This document shows positions 2,407 to 23,454 of a stretch of DNA of 23,613 nucleotides, one piece after another. The stretch's first letter is position 1, and every line of letters begins with the position of its first letter. A program made the translations under genes and the position numbers. The stretch covers positions 1-23,613 of IMG/VR virus record IMGVR_UViG_3300028388_001123; one strand, given 5' to 3'. This DNA is from a virus. The notes under the pieces are model-generated. The model had not been told where the DNA came from, searched no databases, and saw nothing but the letters and a program-made list of their open reading frames with translations.

Positions 2407-4124
2407 TCGAGCGGCTCCGTCTCTGCGGTGGGTGTTGGTAACGTAAACTGCTGCGGTGCCTGCTCGGGCACATTACGCAGGCTGTCGTGGTATCCCTTGA
2501 TGCGGTCTGCGTGCGGCTTGAGCGCGTCAATGGTCTGCACGACCCGCTCCTGCAGCTCGGCCGGCAGCTGCTGGATCGCCTTGGGGTAGTTGTCGTACTC
2601 ATGGAAGCCGGTGTCAGCCCGGCCCCATTCAGTCGTCATGTTGCGGCTGCTCTCCCAGCGGGAGAAGCGCGAGCGCAAGTCACGCACCACCTGCTGGAAG
2701 TCCTGCGGTGGTAGGTCGCCCACATTGGTCAGCACGACACCGCCGGCGCCGTCGGGCGGCTCGGTGACAGCGATGACGTCCTCCAACGAGTCAGTCCAGT
2801 CGGGCATGCCCTCCGGCGGGTCCAGCTTGCCGAGCGTGTCGGCGATCTCCGCCACCTCGGGCGCGTTGATCATACTGGAGCGGAACTGGGCCATATTCAC
2901 CGCACCCCAGGGGATGCCCCGTGTCGCAACCTCCGACTCGGGCACCGACACGACGGGGTAGACCCACGCAGCGGCGTCCTGGTCGCGTAGGACGCCCTCT
3001 ACGATGGCGGTGGCGTCAAGCTGAGCCCTGTCCTGGGGGCTCAGCACGGCGTGCTCAGCGATCCACTCAGCGTCCCAGGACGGGTCTACCTCCGGCGGCT
3101 CGATCCGCAGGCGTGCAGCGGCGACCGGGTTGCGCTGACCCTTGTAGACGCCTTGGGACTGACGTACCGGCGCGTCCTGCACACCGAGCATGCGCGCGAC
3201 GACCGAGCCACCGTCGGGATCTCGCAGCAGCTGCTCCATATCCGCGTGCAGCATAGCGCCGGCGGCGGGGTTGTCTGAGTAGCCTTTGTAACGGGAGGCG
3301 AAGAACTCAGCGCCGGGCATCGATTCAGTTGTCACCTGCGCGTAGGGGCCGCCCCGCGCCAGTAGCTGCTCACGGCCGCCCTGCCGCACAGGGAGCCCTA
3401 GCTGCTCGCGCATGGCGGCGATGTTCGGCGCGTTGCCCTCAAGGTCCACAGGCGTCAGTGAGTACGCCACCGGCCCCTGGTGCACGTTGCTGAGCGTTGG
3501 GTCATCCGGCGTGCGGTAGCCGCCAGTGTAACCGCGGCGGCGGATCTCCCGGTCCAGCTCCTGGCTGTAGGTGCTCGGGTCGGTCCGGGTCGGCTTGGCG
3601 CCGATGAAGCCGTAGTCGTCCATGCGACGGCGGAAATTCTCCTCCAGGTACGCCTTGATCCCGTCCGGGTCGTCGGTGATGTTGTACATCCCCGGCAGCG
3701 CGCCCTCCACAACCCGGCGGCCGGAGGTAATGTCCGGCTCCTCTAGGCTCTGGCCGGGGATGTAGAACTGAGTCTGTGCGGAGTCGGCGAAGGCCGGCCC
3801 GGTGACACGGTTGTACTCCTTGTTCGACCGGCTGGTCGGGCGGCTGCCGTACATGGCCGGGTCAAGCGCCTGGGTGCCCTCGGGCGCGGTCGTGTAGTGG
3901 CGCACCGGCACGACGTCGCCCGGCGGCAGCTTTCCGCCGGGGTAGATCGACTCCGGCACTCGGTCCGGGCGGGCGATGCCTTTGCGCGTGGCGTCGATCA
4001 GGTCCACGACCTCGTCCACCAGCGGCATCAGGTTGACCGCTGCGGTCTTGATGCCCGGCGGATCGTTCCGTGGCCGGCTCGCCAGCTTACGGTCGAGGTT
4101 GTAGAGTGCAGTGTTGATGCTCAT
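2385..4124 (-). CDS. Accessory island protein with polyvalent/ADP-ribosyltransferase-like domain
   Basis: This 579-residue protein has no membrane segment or signal peptide. Residues about 70-220 carry the pattern of a domain I recall from large phage polyvalent proteins: 'RHYTTAPEGTQALDPAMYGS', then an aromatic strand with QTQFYIPG, then 'LPGMYNITDDPDGIK', and a closing 'GYTGGY...VAYSLTPVDL'. In relatives the first motif reads HYS...LDP..yGtg and the later part reads lYDl..DPlgl. Such domains are often compared to ADP-ribosyltransferase toxins, but I see no certain catalytic triad here. The C-terminal half is unassigned. The start overlaps the upstream stop by ATGA at 4121-4124. Position between portal and scaffold suggests a virion-internal or co-injected protein; this is inference. 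Confidence 0.7.
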   Translation of the reverse strand: MSINTALYNLDRKLASRPRNDPPGIKTAAVNLMPLVDEVVDLIDATRKGIARPDRVPESIYPGGKLPPGDVVPVRHYTTAPEGTQALDPAMYGSRPTSRSNKEYNRVTGPAFADSAQTQFYIPGQSLEEPDITSGRRVVEGALPGMYNITDDPDGIKAYLEENFRRRMDDYGFIGAKPTRTDPSTYSQELDREIRRRGYTGGYRTPDDPTLSNVHQGPVAYSLTPVDLEGNAPNIAAMREQLGLPVRQGGREQLLARGGPYAQVTTESMPGAEFFASRYKGYSDNPAAGAMLHADMEQLLRDPDGGSVVARMLGVQDAPVRQSQGVYKGQRNPVAAARLRIEPPEVDPSWDAEWIAEHAVLSPQDRAQLDATAIVEGVLRDQDAAAWVYPVVSVPESEVATRGIPWGAVNMAQFRSSMINAPEVAEIADTLGKLDPPEGMPDWTDSLEDVIAVTEPPDGAGGVVLTNVGDLPPQDFQQVVRDLRSRFSRWESSRNMTTEWGRADTGFHEYDNYPKAIQQLPAELQERVVQTIDALKPHADRIKGYHDSLRNVPEQAPQQFTLPTPTAETEPLEWTGESN

Positions 4125-6157
4125 GGAATACTTCTGCCGTACTGGTCAGCCAACGCGCGCAATTCTCGCGTTCTGGCTCCTGGTGGATTATCCCTCCTAA
4201 TCAGCTCAACCAAAGACGGCTGATCGTCGATCGGAGTCCAGCCTTTTCGCTCCCACAGCTCTTTTTCCGCAAACCACATCAACGCCTGAAGATCGTCGGC
4301 ATCCATACCAAGTTTAGCGGCCGCAGTGTTAAATACATCGCGAGCCAACCCGTATTGGGCGGTTACTTCGGGCGCCGGTATTTGCTCAGCGTCTTTTGCG
4401 GCCCCCATGCTAGGAGATGGTGGCGCCTTGCCGCGCTCAAACGCACGCAACTCACGATTTCGCTGAGACAGCGCCCTATCGTAATGCCCCGAACGCAGCG
4501 TATATGTCGGCTGCGCGCGCTGCCCCGGCACACCCGCATCTGCTTTAGGTGGCACGCGATCACCGCCCATTAAGCGGTTGACCGTTCGACCGGCCCACAC
4601 GTCGATAGTTGGGTCGACAGACGTACCTCTGAGGTTCTGCGCAAAATTGCGCATCTTCGGCGCCATTCCAGGCTCGACGTTACCGAGCAACCTCCGCGCA
4701 GAAAGCATTGCGCTAGCACTGTGCATGCCGAATTTTTTGCCGTTACGCTTCAACGGCACCGCGGCGGGATCGTACTCCTCGGCGCGCTCGTCAAACAGCC
4801 GCCGCGCCCATTGAGAGTCGGTTTCTCCGTCCGGCTTGCGTGCCATGTGCGCATCGAATCGCTGAAGATGGTCATCAAACTCACCTCCAACCAATCGTTC
4901 AAAGAACTCTTGAGCCATTTTATGCTGGTCTCGTAACTTGGTGTTTGGGCTCATTGCCCCCTGGAGGTCCGCATACAGCGAACCGCCAGTATCACCAAAC
5001 GCGTCACGTATTGTTCGCTGCGCATCGTTGTACCATTTACTCTGGTCTACGATGAACTGAGCGTTAGCATCACCGGCGCCAGCGCGCGTAATGATATCAG
5101 CAACTTCATCAACCAACGCGTTGCTCGCGTTTTCAACCGCCGCCGTGCGTCGCGCGCCTTTGTACGGTCTGTCGGTAGTGGGGTCTATGTGGAAGTTTGG
5201 ATGGGCTCCTTTATAGGTGATGCTCGGTCCGCTGTCTCCGGTATCTACGCGACCTATCTCTGCGGGCGCCCAGCCCTCGCTCGGGTGATGCTCTGAGCGG
5301 TATTTGACAGCGTCGGCGCGAGCCATGGCCGCGAGCTTCTCTGCGGTCGGCGCGCCATACTCTTCTGTCATGCGCGCCTGATATTCGCGCACCCGCTGCG
5401 CGTCGGGAGGCGCCAGCCTTGCCGCTCTTGAGGTGCTCTCTACACCCTGCGGGTATGTGTATATGCCGGGCGACGTACCCACCTGATAGCCCGCCGCAGC
5501 GGTCATCTCGTCCAGCGTGTCAGACGACCGCGGCAGACGAGTGCCCAACATGCCGAGCTGCGCCCGCCCGCCGAGCGGTGCGCTGATCGCCGGCATGGCG
5601 CCGGCCTGACGCGCCACGTAGTCATCGACAATGCGCCCTGGCAGTCGGGCCGCATCCTCGGCGAAGTGCCGGGCCTTGGTGAGCGCAAGGGGTGTTGCGT
5701 CAGCGGCGAGTGCCGCCAGCTCGACGCCGGCAGCGGTCGGCATCGAGACGCTGCCCCGCTGCGCCATACCGCCACGGGTCTGGACCATCTCCGGCTCAGT
5801 GTCTTGCCAGTACACGTCTTCGTCGCCGACGGCCGCGCGCTCGGCATCAGTCGGCATATCACCAAGCAGAAAGTCACCGACGCGTCCCGCTACGCCACCG
5901 GGGCTGTAGACGGGCGCCTGAGCCATGTCCTCGAACATGCGATCGGCGGGACCGAGCACTGCGTCAACCACCTCGCCGACTGCCTGCTGCTGCTCCTGCG
6001 AGGGGCGGATGTCGCGAGGGGTCTGCCGACGAGTGCCGCGGGACGCCGTCCGTCGCCCCTCAAGCGCTTGCAAGGCGCGCTCCTGCTCGCGTTGGCGCTG
6101 CTCCCACTCCCGGCGCTTGCCGGCTGATGCTCGGAATGCTTGGTAAGCGGCGGTCAT
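4121..6157 (-). CDS. Accessory island protein with DUF7178/DNA-glycosylase-like core
   Basis: This 678-residue protein starts at the ATG at 6157, which overlaps the upstream stop by ATGA. The frame can be extended to a TTG at 6196, but that start has no support. Residues about 5-65 are very basic and helical (KRREWEQRQREQERAL). The second half carries a pattern found in phage DUF7178-like, helix-hairpin-helix/DNA-glycosylase-like domains: 'WYNDAQRTI', 'LQGAMSPNTKLRDQ', then 'MAPKMRNFAQNLRG' and 'DPTIDVWAGRTVNRLMG', with a closing 'LQALMWFAEKELWERKG'. In relatives the LSP..n, K..nFa.Ni.G and tiD.ha/wa elements occur in this order. The 3' part (about 4130-5300) is clearly less GC-rich than the rest of the operon, suggesting later acquisition. 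Function is not established. Confidence 0.75.
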   Translation of the reverse strand: MTAAYQAFRASAGKRREWEQRQREQERALQALEGRRTASRGTRRQTPRDIRPSQEQQQAVGEVVDAVLGPADRMFEDMAQAPVYSPGGVAGRVGDFLLGDMPTDAERAAVGDEDVYWQDTEPEMVQTRGGMAQRGSVSMPTAAGVELAALAADATPLALTKARHFAEDAARLPGRIVDDYVARQAGAMPAISAPLGGRAQLGMLGTRLPRSSDTLDEMTAAAGYQVGTSPGIYTYPQGVESTSRAARLAPPDAQRVREYQARMTEEYGAPTAEKLAAMARADAVKYRSEHHPSEGWAPAEIGRVDTGDSGPSITYKGAHPNFHIDPTTDRPYKGARRTAAVENASNALVDEVADIITRAGAGDANAQFIVDQSKWYNDAQRTIRDAFGDTGGSLYADLQGAMSPNTKLRDQHKMAQEFFERLVGGEFDDHLQRFDAHMARKPDGETDSQWARRLFDERAEEYDPAAVPLKRNGKKFGMHSASAMLSARRLLGNVEPGMAPKMRNFAQNLRGTSVDPTIDVWAGRTVNRLMGGDRVPPKADAGVPGQRAQPTYTLRSGHYDRALSQRNRELRAFERGKAPPSPSMGAAKDAEQIPAPEVTAQYGLARDVFNTAAAKLGMDADDLQALMWFAEKELWERKGWTPIDDQPSLVELIRRDNPPGARTRELRALADQYGRSIP

Positions 6158-12825: not shown

Positions 12826-13446
12826 TCAACCTTGGGGTGCGGGCTGCTGCTTGATGCACATCTTCATCCACTCAAGGTCTTTCTCGCCGGCTGTCTGACC
12901 ATGCCCCCGCGTGCCTTGCGCCCCGCGCTGGCCGTTGTAGCGCCCCCGCTTAGCGTACGACGCGTGTTCTGGCACCGGCGCCCCGAGCCAGAACACCACC
13001 TGCCCAACACGCATGCCGGGCGCCAGCTGAAGACTGTGGGTGAGACAGTTGTTGCGCAGCTCCAACGTCAGCGTCGCGTTATTCCAGCCAGGATCGCCCC
13101 AGCCAGCCAGCGCGTGGTCAAGACCAGCGCGCGCCATAGAGCTGCGCAGCTTGAACTCCAGCGCAAGATCATCCCGTAGATTGAAACGCTCCACTGTCTC
13201 AAACAGCGCCCACTGCCCCGGCAACAGTACCCATTTTCCTTGGTCGTCAAGCGGCGCCGAAAACATAGACGGACCCTCAGCTTTCTCCGCTGTGAGGTCG
13301 ACAGTACCCCTCTCGCAAGTACGCTCTAACCACATCACATCACCTAGGCGCACGTCCAAACTCGCCGCGTTCACGTTCTCAAGGCTGGCGCCCTCAACCA
13401 CGCCGTCCTCGACAAGCGAGCAAATCCCGTCGTAAGTCACAAGCAT
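12826..13446 (-). CDS. dCTP deaminase/dUTPase-family protein
   Basis: This 206-residue enzyme probably converts dCTP to dUTP, or directly to dUMP, feeding thymidylate synthesis. It shows the family's ordered motifs: AASLDVRLGD at 27-36, LPGQWALFETVE at 75-86, RSSMARAGL at 101-109 (nucleotide contacts), GDPGW at 117-121, LTLELRN at 126-132 with the expected catalytic Glu (E129), GMRVGQVVF, and a closing RYNGQRG. The A.GW.DPGW...tLEL and GQRG pattern is nearer to bifunctional dCTP deaminase:dUTPases than to E. coli Dcd. The frame stays open far upstream, but the ATG at 13446 is right: GGAGG lies 9 bases before it and the protein then begins like the family. It sits 4 bases after the stop of the preceding gene. 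Whether it is mono- or bifunctional cannot be read from sequence alone. Confidence 0.88.
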   Translation of the reverse strand: MLVTYDGICSLVEDGVVEGASLENVNAASLDVRLGDVMWLERTCERGTVDLTAEKAEGPSMFSAPLDDQGKWVLLPGQWALFETVERFNLRDDLALEFKLRSSMARAGLDHALAGWGDPGWNNATLTLELRNNCLTHSLQLAPGMRVGQVVFWLGAPVPEHASYAKRGRYNGQRGAQGTRGHGQTAGEKDLEWMKMCIKQQPAPQG

Positions 13447-13450
13447 CGCT

Positions 13451-13867
13451 CTAGCCCTCCTGCGCGCGTAGCGCGTCCGTAGCCCTGGCCCATGCACGCA
13501 GGCGTTGCACGGCCTCGTTGTGGAAGCGCGCCTCCTGGGTGTCACCCTCAAGGTACCGCAGGTCGTCGACGAAATCCTCTGTGCGTATGTCGAACAGGTA
13601 CTCCTCCGCCCAGGCCAGCGCCATGCGCACGCCGCGAGAGAGCTTGCCGCCGCCCTGCTTCTTGGCGCGCTCGTGCATGTCGTCGGAAATGACCACGCGC
13701 CGGGGCTTGGACTCAGGGGCGGGGGCGTAGTCGCTGCTGTCAGGGTCAGTAAGAAGCATGGGGCACTGGCGCAGCGCGATCTCGATACCGAAGGCCACGC
13801 TGCCGCCGCCCATGGTGCGCGCGACGAGCGCCTCGTGGTCGGTGAGCTGGATAACTGTGTTGGCCAT
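13451..13867 (-). CDS. Tandem ribbon-helix-helix-like protein (possible regulator)
   Basis: This is a 138-residue protein of no family I can name. It contains two copies of a similar unit. The first is at about residues 4-32 (VIQLTDHEALVARTMGGG...GIEIAL) and the second at about 57-84 (VVISDDMHERAKKQGGG...GVRMAL). Each has a short strand, a T/S-D turn, a helix, a GGG turn and a helix ending in AL, which is the layout of one ribbon-helix-helix chain. Two fused copies could form a single-chain DNA-binding fold. The C-terminal part is helical and charged. AGAGG precedes the ATG closely, and a good minus-strand promoter lies at 13897-13925. It is the first gene of the unit with the dCTP deaminase-family gene and lies beside the repeat array at 13964-14247, so DNA binding there is possible but unproven. 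Confidence 0.7.
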   Translation of the reverse strand: MANTVIQLTDHEALVARTMGGGSVAFGIEIALRQCPMLLTDPDSSDYAPAPESKPRRVVISDDMHERAKKQGGGKLSRGVRMALAWAEEYLFDIRTEDFVDDLRYLEGDTQEARFHNEAVQRLRAWARATDALRAQEG

Positions 13868-20731: not shown

Positions 20732-21024
20732 GGGAATCGACCCTAGAGGCCCGCTGCCGTAAGCGAGCCGCTGCCCTCGGGTGGCGGCTTCCCAAGTGGG
20801 TCTCGCCAGGCAACAACGGCGTGCCGGATCGTATCCTGCTTGCCGACGGTTGCCTGGTCTTCATCGAGTTCAAGGCGCCGGGCAAACGCCCGACGCCGCT
20901 ACAGCAGCACTGGATAGACTGGCTCAACGACCATGGACTCCGCGCAGAAGTCATCGACAGCTACGACGCCTTCGAGACCCTCGTTGAGGAGCTATCAGGA
21001 GCGGGCGGTAGAGCGGATCTATGA
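20728..21024 (+). CDS. VRR-NUC domain nuclease
   Basis: This 98-residue stand-alone VRR-NUC protein is a PD-(D/E)XK endonuclease type that can cut branched DNA such as Holliday junctions. It shows E3 in the opening helix (ESTLEARCRKRA), then GNNGVPDRILL with D34, then VFIEFKAPGKRPTPLQQ with E47-x-K49 and Q59. These are the family's active-site residues in normal order, and the length is typical for phage forms. The start is GTG at 20728, overlapping the previous stop as GTGA. Its 3' end overlaps the helicase gene by up to 92 bases. Confidence 0.93.
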   Translation: MRESTLEARCRKRAAALGWRLPKWVSPGNNGVPDRILLADGCLVFIEFKAPGKRPTPLQQHWIDWLNDHGLRAEVIDSYDAFETLVEELSGAGGRADL

Positions 21025-22300
21025 GTACGACACGACACTTGTCGACGCCAAGATGGGTGCCGGCAAGACGGCCATCGCATCGACCGCGGCAGCAGAACTG
21101 CTGCGTGACGGCGTTGTCTCTCGCGTGCTGGTATTGGCCCCGGCTAACGTGGCGCGTTTTGTGTGGCCTACGGAGGCAGCTATTTGGGCGCCGGACTGGG
21201 AGTGTCGCGCCGCCGCCGGCACGCCAAAGCAGCGCGCACGCATACTTGCAAGCGACACGCCTATCGTATCCATGAGTCTGGACGTGCTGCCGTGGGCAGC
21301 GCGCGAGCAGCTGCTTCGCGGCTTTGACATGCTCATCATCGACGAGTCAACGTGGATCGCTGACGCGACCACTGCTCGGTTCAAGGCGCTGATGAAGGTC
21401 CGGCCCCAGTTCAAGGTCGTTGTCGGTCTTACAGGCACGCTGATGGGCCGGGGCCTGCTTGGGCTTTATGGGCAGGTGACAGCCGTCGACGGCGGCAAGC
21501 GCTGGAGCACATCGTTCTACCGGTGGCGCAAGCGCTTGTTCGACTCCGACTACCAGGGGCACAAATGGGAGCCCAAGCCGGGCACGCACGAGCGGCTACT
21601 GAGAGAGATGCGTGACCTGGTCTGGTACATCGAGCCCGACACACTCGACGCCGAGCTGCCAGACGTTGTCACCGATACGATCCGCGTAGGCATGCCCGCC
21701 TCAGTCAGGCGTGAGTACGAGCGCCTTGGCGAAGACTTCGTGCTTGCGCTGGAGACAGGCGACACGATCCTCGCCGGCTCCGCGGACACGCTCACAGGTA
21801 AGCTGCGGCAGCTTAGCGGCGGCTTCCTATACAACGAGGCGGGTGAGCCAGTGTGGCGCTTCCACGGCAAGATGGACGCTGCCGCGCAAGCGCTGCAGAC
21901 GATGGGCGCCAACTGCCTCGTGCTCTACGAGTACATCGCAGAGCTGGAGGCGATGCAGGCGCGTGTGCCGGGCGCTACGATCCACGACAGGGGCGTCATT
22001 GACGCGTGGAACCGCGGCGGGGTGCCGGTGCTGTACGCGCACCGGGGCAGCGTCGGGCACGGGCTCAACCTTCAGCACGGCGGCAACGCGCTTCTCTGGC
22101 TGAGCCTACCCTGGAGCTGGGAGCAGTACGAGCAGGCTCGGGCGCGGTTGATCCGCCCCGGTCAGCGGAACACCGTGATGGAGCACATTATGCTCGTGAG
22201 CGACACCATCGACGACGCCGTCCTTGGGTCGCTGCAAGCGCAACGCAACACGGCGGCTGATGTCGCCGACTATCTCAAGAGGCACCAAGATGGCAGGTAG
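20933..22300 (+). CDS. SNF2/DEAD-type phage helicase
   Basis: This 455-residue ATP-dependent DNA translocase has motif I MGAGKTA at 41-47, motif II IIDEST at 135-140 (D137, E138), motif III-like GLTGTLMGRG, and in the second domain 'GSVGHGLNLQHGGNALLWLSLPWSWEQYEQARARLIRPGQ', read in two parts (motifs V and VI; RPGQ ends at 411). The LRSYQ..AV N-terminal Q-motif-like helix begins at residue 18, so the start must lie inside the VRR-NUC gene: ATG at 20933 (92-base overlap) or TTG at 20984 (41-base overlap). Such helicases accompany VRR-NUC and DUF2800 genes in many phages and are thought to act in replication or recombination. The next gene overlaps its end by 11 bases. Confidence 0.9.
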   Translation: MDSAQKSSTATTPSRPSLRSYQERAVERIYEYDTTLVDAKMGAGKTAIASTAAAELLRDGVVSRVLVLAPANVARFVWPTEAAIWAPDWECRAAAGTPKQRARILASDTPIVSMSLDVLPWAAREQLLRGFDMLIIDESTWIADATTARFKALMKVRPQFKVVVGLTGTLMGRGLLGLYGQVTAVDGGKRWSTSFYRWRKRLFDSDYQGHKWEPKPGTHERLLREMRDLVWYIEPDTLDAELPDVVTDTIRVGMPASVRREYERLGEDFVLALETGDTILAGSADTLTGKLRQLSGGFLYNEAGEPVWRFHGKMDAAAQALQTMGANCLVLYEYIAELEAMQARVPGATIHDRGVIDAWNRGGVPVLYAHRGSVGHGLNLQHGGNALLWLSLPWSWEQYEQARARLIRPGQRNTVMEHIMLVSDTIDDAVLGSLQAQRNTAADVADYLKRHQDGR

Positions 22301-23105: not shown

Positions 23106-23270
23106 ATGACCCCCGACCAGCGGCTCACGCACAAACAGATCGGCGACACCATTGCCGAGATCATGCACCGCTACGCCAATAGGGATTGGACGTGGTTCAG
23201 CCAAACGGATCAGATCGACGACTTGCGGATCTTGGCGAAGCACATGGAGGGGCGCGGGGATGCACAGTGA
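23106..23270 (+). CDS. Small hypothetical protein (54 residues)
   Basis: The ATG at 23106 follows a strong GGAGG ribosome binding site (4-base spacing) in the only sizeable gap of the right arm. The product begins [20 protein letters not shown] and continues with [16 protein letters not shown] and a final helix ([15 protein letters not shown]). It is helical, with a cluster of aromatics in the middle; I recognise no family. Its stop overlaps the DfrB-like gene by 11 bases, which suggests that the two are translated together. Confidence 0.65.
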
Positions 23271-23454
23271 CAAGCACACCAAGTTCAGGATTGGCGATCG
23301 GGTGCAGAAGACGAAAGGCTCGGACTGGCGAGGACACGTCGTCGGGCTCTACAGCACCTGGCTCACTCCCGAGGGTTACTGCGTCGAGAGTGAAGATCAC
23401 TATGGCTCCGTGCAGATATACCCCGCCGCAGCGCTGGAGAAAATAGATGAGTAA
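23260..23454 (+). CDS. Type II dihydrofolate reductase, R67/DfrB-like
   Basis: This 64-residue protein aligns without gaps to the core of plasmid R67 dihydrofolate reductase, as I recall its sequence: 36 of 55 residues are identical from F9 to D63. The active-site strand VQIY is at 51-54 (R67 66-69), the substrate-binding lysine at K17 (R67 Lys32), the tetramer-interface histidine at H47 (His62) and tryptophan at W23 (Trp38). TPEGY at 36-40 and VESE at 42-45 are also kept. R67 is a homotetramer of SH3-like barrels with one central pore that reduces dihydrofolate using NADPH and is not inhibited by trimethoprim. The disordered R67 N-terminus is shortened here. The start ATG at 23260 has GGAGG 9 bases upstream; a frame extension to 23152 is not needed. 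The ribonucleotide reductase gene overlaps its end by 8 bases. Enzyme activity is inferred. Confidence 0.9.

Follow-up and report, generated by a model that had tools for sequence, protein, structure and literature searches.

R67 (DfrB1) and its integron-borne and environmental relatives DfrB2 to DfrB21 (PF06442) form the classic "enzyme without a past," and their origin or original function was called unknown in papers published from 2020 to 2023 (PMC7725336, PMC9835603, and PMC10432401). Catalysis by R67-type enzymes is slow, with a kcat of 0.2 to 0.4 per s (PMC9774602), so that a sufficient amount of enzyme would be needed. Phage-borne members have been described: DfrB-H3 of Pseudomonas phage PS-1 and DfrB-H4 of a Vibrio phage were assayed in 2023, and DfrB-H4 conferred trimethoprim resistance, whereas DfrB-H3 showed neither visible expression nor resistance (PMC9835603). 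Four dfrB genes have been reported from viromes (PMC7265639) and eight from lytic phages (PMC12466917). Other known phage DfrBs are those of Ochrobactrum phage ZX86 and of podovirus ctOsX528, the latter a stand-alone protein of 68 residues encoded among replication genes on a genome that also carries a class II ribonucleotide reductase (RNR); most of the known phage DfrBs are fused to other domains or lie distant from nucleotide genes. Lemay-St-Denis et al. (2023) left room for the view that such proteins are binding modules.

The virus record IMGVR_UViG_3300028388_001123 was analyzed over its full length of 23,613 bases (the window). As the initial annotation had proposed, an open reading frame (ORF) at 23260-23454 on the plus strand (start ATG at 23260 and stop TAA at 23452-23454, according to the ORF list and translation) encodes a 64-residue R67/DfrB-type protein. 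The protein matched PF06442 (DHFR_2, R67 DHFR) with an E value of 2.8e-24 and 85 bits, far above the Pfam cutoff of 25; it matched the R67 chains in the PDB with an E value of 8e-20, and an ungapped BLASTP alignment with R67 gave 36 identities in 55 positions (65%), exactly the number that had been counted by hand. Together, these three results exclude chance similarity to R67. With protein positions equal to the R67 number minus 15, the key lysine K32 was found as K17, the tetramer-interface residues W38 and H62 as W23 and H47, and V66-Q67-I68-Y69 as V51-Q52-I53-Y54, so that the residues listed in the initial annotation were all retained. The position of W45 is occupied by Leu30; this tryptophan is reported to be replaceable in DfrB (PMC9835603). 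The SH3-like core is thus shared with R67 and the other DfrBs, whereas only 8 residues precede it, in contrast to 23 (up to F24) in the 78-residue form of R67. An AlphaFold2 monomer model built from 39 sequences of the window and the loci had a pLDDT of 89.7, and its seven best Foldseek matches in the PDB were all R67 (2gqv, TM score of 0.88 and rmsd of 0.6 A), followed by KOW, CAP-Gly, and PWWP-type folds. The score against the resistance-grade NCBIfam model trim_DfrB (NF000331) was 95.4 bits, under the cutoff of 137. On these sequence comparisons, the protein is classed as a member of the DfrB family and not as a resistance allele by the trim_DfrB standard. We consider it to be a phage R67-type dihydrofolate reductase (DHFR) whose likely role is the regeneration of tetrahydrofolate for dTMP synthesis, with a probability of about 0.7.

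The gene lies in a phage array and not in a cassette, unlike the integron DfrB genes (Table 1). Its stop codon is overlapped by 8 nt by the ATG-initiated reading frame of nrdB at 23447 (ATGAGTAA), which encodes the N-terminal 55 residues of an RNR small chain and ends at the contig end; the direct overlap with an RNR gene reported in the initial annotation was thus confirmed. The 54-residue ORF upstream had no match in Pfam, PHROG, or NCBIfam. The plus strand carries a replication and recombination array including DUF2800, VRR-NUC, and helicase genes, and the minus strand carries genes for an SU10-type capsid, a portal, and a large terminase; the dCTP deaminase-like gene was placed between the structural and the replication genes. 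The record is probably a fragment of a genome; RNR and dCTP deaminase-like genes were present in the 23.6-kb fragment, and no thyA was found in it. A scan for promoters and terminators gave signals no stronger than those in shuffled sequences. PADLOC found no defense system in the record, and a defense-system reading of the locus was dropped on that result. A polymerase scan found no close relatives of the whole phage, and a terminase scan found one 4.3-kb fragment at 73% and otherwise matches of 45% or less; relatives of the helicase were found in 1,501 phage records.

Table 1. Features of the virus record and examples of the thyA gene order in other viral contigs
Feature	Position	Strand	Evidence
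dCTP deaminase-like protein, a source of dUMP for thymidylate; start codon within the frame not fixed	12829..13470	-	PF22769 DCD, E 1e-25
SNF2/DEAD-type helicase, same plus-strand array	20933..22300	+	PF00176, E 4e-7
HTH/Myb-like DNA-binding protein, probable phage regulator	22607..23080	+	PF13921, 9e-5; phrog_323 "D5-like regulator," 2e-8
54-aa ORF, overlaps dfrB start by 11 nt	23106..23270	+	ORF list
dfrB-like gene, R67-type (type B) dihydrofolate reductase, 64 aa	23260..23454	+	PF06442, PDB, BLASTP, AF2/Foldseek
VQIY active-site motif, residues 51-54 (R67 V66-Y69)	23410..23421	+	Sequence, alignment
NrdB (RNR small chain), N-terminal 55 aa, cut by contig end	23447..23613	+	PF00268, 2.2e-8, over cutoff; NCBIfam PRK09614, 1.6e-9
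Gene Y - X - thyA, examples L323, L334, L343, L357	about 3300-5050		
Gene Y - X - thyA, controls L395, L402, L415	about 3900-5870		

The presence of a DfrB in a phage, as claimed in the initial annotation, was correct but not new. A tblastn search found DfrB in 26 GenBank phage records, several of them labeled "R67" or "dihydrofolate reductase" and including cultured Rhizobium and Vibrio phages. A profile-guided scan of IMG/VR gave at least 231 stretches with DfrB, and a scan of 84,980 species with one genome each gave 51 stretches (50 loci), the motifs differing slightly between the two scans. The gene at 23260-23454 adds to these a compact member, coupled to an RNR gene, in an unusually suggestive setting; no overlap with an RNR gene was seen in any of the phage homologs that were looked at. 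Among 50 DfrB-bearing viral records, RNR genes were found in 3 and thyA in 7, and neither thyX nor a canonical DHFR was found in any. The description of a native nucleotide-metabolism setting therefore holds for this record, with its nrdB overlap and dCTP deaminase-like gene, and does not extend to phage DfrBs as a group. Because RNR genes occurred in just 3 of the 50 records, the RNR adjacency is special to this one and, taken alone, could be a coincidence. That RNR or thyA accompanies a minority of phage DfrBs also counts against the thymidylate reading.

Some phage DfrBs are stand-alone proteins of 58 to 70 residues, and many form the C-terminal part of a mosaic protein; others are N-terminal to further domains, including MazG-type pyrophosphatase and DUF3850/ASCH domains. 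In the viral contigs L012 (4180-4788), L091, L006, and L002, a MazG-type pyrophosphatase was either joined to the DfrB domain or encoded after it, and L016 carried a DfrB-DUF3850/ASCH fusion. The MazG partners are in line with a role in nucleotide metabolism. The mosaic structure of many phage DfrBs, however, is as compatible with a binding module as with an enzyme, and the protein might be a nonenzymatic SH3-like module that binds nucleic acid or protein, its DHFR activity being adventitious. The variety of fusion partners, the lack of thymidylate genes in most DfrB contexts, and the KOW, CAP-Gly, and PWWP-type folds as next structural neighbors are all in keeping with such a module, as is a sporadic distribution among phages sharing the terminase or helicase (DfrB in 0 of 40 such contigs, a weak negative, since no control rang for that family). 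Against it, the tunnel residues K32, Q67, and Y69 hardly varied from one fusion to another. Among the 133 unique cores compared, K32 was conserved in 99% and W38, Y46, Q67, Y69, and P70 in 100%, values that are inflated because the scan motifs contained GSVQIYP, and W45 and position 62 were variable; in the GenBank phage set, which was collected without a motif, 10 of 11 distinct cores had VQIY and the 11th had VQVY. Such conservation in many different fusions favors ligand binding or catalysis rather than the function of a plain SH3 adaptor. A second argument against the module comes from a sister family whose members take the position of DHFR upstream of thyA; the loci examined showed no gene of any other kind at that position (see below). 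We regard a purely binding role as unlikely, while still giving it some weight.

The sister family was recognized through a weak match of the first DfrB scan (L018:7995-8174) that had LHIY in place of VQIY. Scans with L018 and its relatives gave at least 103 IMG/VR stretches encoding members of this LHIY family, 58-residue SH3-like proteins (L294 to L373, with the match at 4001-4180 in most) with the consensus GDKVxKxxGYKWPGxVVAxFxTLxGERRxVVECTxPExxGALHIYNExQLE. The family had no entry in Pfam or PHROG, and its best NCBIfam match was a subthreshold one to trim_DfrB. Homology to DfrB was indicated by a profile-profile comparison (probability of 97.8% and E value of 1e-12, with approximately 26 to 36% identity) and by a PDB profile search in which R67 ranked first, the best match being to its Q67H mutant (E value of 6e-6). 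In addition, a model with a pLDDT of 95.9 had R67 as its top Foldseek match (TM score of 0.80), and the LHIY hidden Markov model, run on the ORFs of the window, also picked out the 64-residue DfrB (E value of 1e-8). The two families share the SH3-like fold, K32, W/F38, G64, I68, and Y/F69; the LHIY proteins differ in V66L, Q67H, the replacement of P70 by Asn, a conserved GERR loop, and linkage to thyA or mazG. The motif is compatible with catalysis, since natural DfrB12 carries Q67H yet confers resistance to 150 ug/ml (PMC9774602). The family is largely viral, because among 249 genomes from the order to which Rhizobium lusitanum belongs, just 4 had a strong member; GenBank members, in Pelagibacter phage Kolga and Rhizobium phage RHEph10, are labeled "hypothetical" or unannotated. 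The LHIY family is a new result of this analysis, with R67 as its nearest solved structure.

Dihydrofolate arises mainly through thymidylate synthase. The gene following the LHIY gene was thyA in eight of 80 LHIY loci (PF00303, E value of about 1e-105 in the four scanned). As a control, 80 viral relatives of the ThyA proteins from LHIY loci were fetched, and 50 of the contigs were searched for canonical DHFR, which was found in 23; in 21 of these it ended within 116 nt upstream of thyA. The gene order throughout this phage group was gene Y, X, and thyA, X being a canonical DHFR gene, an LHIY gene, or nothing. X was canonical DHFR in those 23 contigs. An LHIY gene stood at X in 10 loci (L323, L324, L334, L335, L338, L343, L345, L357, L423, and L442; 7 distinct loci once the same or near-identical contigs were removed), with a gap to thyA of -1 to 22 nt, and X was empty in 27; the contigs share kinship, and these counts are not independent. 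In no locus did an LHIY gene and a canonical DHFR gene stand together before thyA, and no other gene was seen at X in the examined empty loci. Canonical DHFR was likewise absent from all 50 LHIY records searched and from all 13 thyA-bearing LHIY contigs, the latter compared with 23 of the 50 controls (Fisher's P value of 0.002, indicative only for related contigs). The spread of the LHIY label over the ThyA tree required four changes, two of them forced by the starred branches.

Displacement by a working DHFR predicts precisely that X should be DHFR, LHIY, or nothing, and never both. The simplest reading of the gene order would be a nonorthologous displacement in which the LHIY protein and the canonical phage DHFR (FolA/DfrA-like, PF00186), whose fold is unrelated to that of DfrB and LHIY, both regenerate tetrahydrofolate from the dihydrofolate made by ThyA; the two would thus share a reaction as well as a place in the operon. 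Because the LHIY genes sit where a canonical DHFR would be, before thyA, this analogy suggests that folate supply for thymidine synthesis may be the natural job of the DfrB/LHIY family. The operon result belongs to the sister family, in which L-H replaces V-Q in the motif, and this counts against carrying it over to the 64-residue protein. For that protein, the earlier proposal of tetrahydrofolate production for thymidylate gained strong indirect support from the sister genes and none from a thyA in the fragment itself. It was the gene for the 64-residue protein that led to this homologous phage family in the place of canonical DHFR, and the family makes native function a directly testable question.

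LHIY genes were found more often beside MazG-type pyrophosphohydrolase genes than beside thyA: of the 80 loci, about one third had a MazG-like gene close to the LHIY gene, usually directly downstream. This preference, together with an RNR adjacency seen only in this record, is what would be expected if the protein were a genuine DHFR serving another folate need (purine or fMet), or another pterin reductase, with the RNR neighbor being coincidental. Such a role seems improbable to us, given that the sister family sits by the very enzyme that produces most dihydrofolate and that this record also carries a dCTP deaminase-like gene. In L316 (4173-4589), L311, and L330, the LHIY gene was followed directly by an HhH-GPD-type (base-excision glycosylase-like) gene and mazG, neighbors suggesting a possible link of LHIY proteins to the handling of uracil or odd bases.

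Under the preferred reading, regeneration of tetrahydrofolate for dTMP synthesis, we infer that four copies of the 64-residue protein would assemble around the tunnel known from R67. K17 (K32) and the VQIY strand would bind NADPH and dihydrofolate there, one facing the other, and the hydride would be transferred directly, with no need for a catalytic acid. The gene would be translated in the early array, coupled to the RNR gene. During phage DNA replication, thymidylate synthase of the host or the phage would convert the extra dUMP to dTMP, and DfrB would restore the tetrahydrofolate. Trimethoprim insensitivity would then be a by-product of the unrelated fold, which, if true, explains how it could predate the synthetic drug.

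The tree built from the 133 unique cores placed the integron proteins DfrB1, 2, 3, 4, 9, and 10 in one shallow clade (100/97), which also held relatives in Burkholderiales and other genomes and a protein of viral contig L103; viral contig L052 was sister to this clade (97/85). Both contigs are phage, as judged by the tail, helicase, integrase, or methyltransferase genes on them. With the LHIY family as the outgroup, the integron clade was still shallow (99/79) and contained L103, and the deep forks collapsed; the trees rest on 55 columns, too few to show the direction of transfer between phage and integron. Two pairings, of the 64-residue protein with Ochrobactrum phage ZX86 (88/90) and of the plasmid DfrB L272 with viruses (98/90), were unstable once the outgroup was added and were rejected. 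The earlier suggestion that phages are a source of the resistance genes thus found backing in the position of L103 and none in the deep branches: a phage origin of the integron DfrBs is plausible, with transfer from bacterium to phage as a possible alternative. As a tentative wider proposal, to which we give slightly less than even odds, the DfrB fold would have arisen, or at least been kept, in phages as an independent second answer to the need for dihydrofolate reduction in thymidylate synthesis. LHIY proteins would then serve as the functional DHFR in viral thyA operons and replace, or be replaced by, the canonical enzyme at a single position, and the integron genes would be a recent phage offshoot.

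The same comparisons bear on whether the gene at 23260-23454 is a trimethoprim-resistance cassette recently captured by a phage. It belongs to the same family as the integron DfrBs, and a DfrB close to the viral ones occurs on the multidrug resistance plasmid p1160-VIM. Its 65% identity to R67 nevertheless contrasts with identities of about 80% and upward among members of the integron clade, its trim_DfrB score is below the resistance cutoff, and phage-array ORFs overlap it on both sides, leaving no room for a cassette. Moreover, it fell outside the DfrB1-4/9/10 clade in both trees, with a best identity to any tree row of 75%. Recent capture is accordingly very improbable.

An integron integrase scored above the cutoff in 8 of the 18 genomes that were checked within the complete DfrB set, irrespective of its position relative to dfrB. 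On p1160-VIM (L272:2998-3201), an unnumbered DfrB, whose nearest matches in sequence identity (78%) are viral proteins, lies beside aadA1, and its flank looked on inspection like an attC site or cassette interrupted by ISPa62, an IS110 element. A distinct DfrB branch (KKGRASWRGKIVGWYRT; L265 to L271 and L281) was found in Rhizobiales and sphingomonads, and on one plasmid it adjoins a Tn3 transposase and a recombinase.
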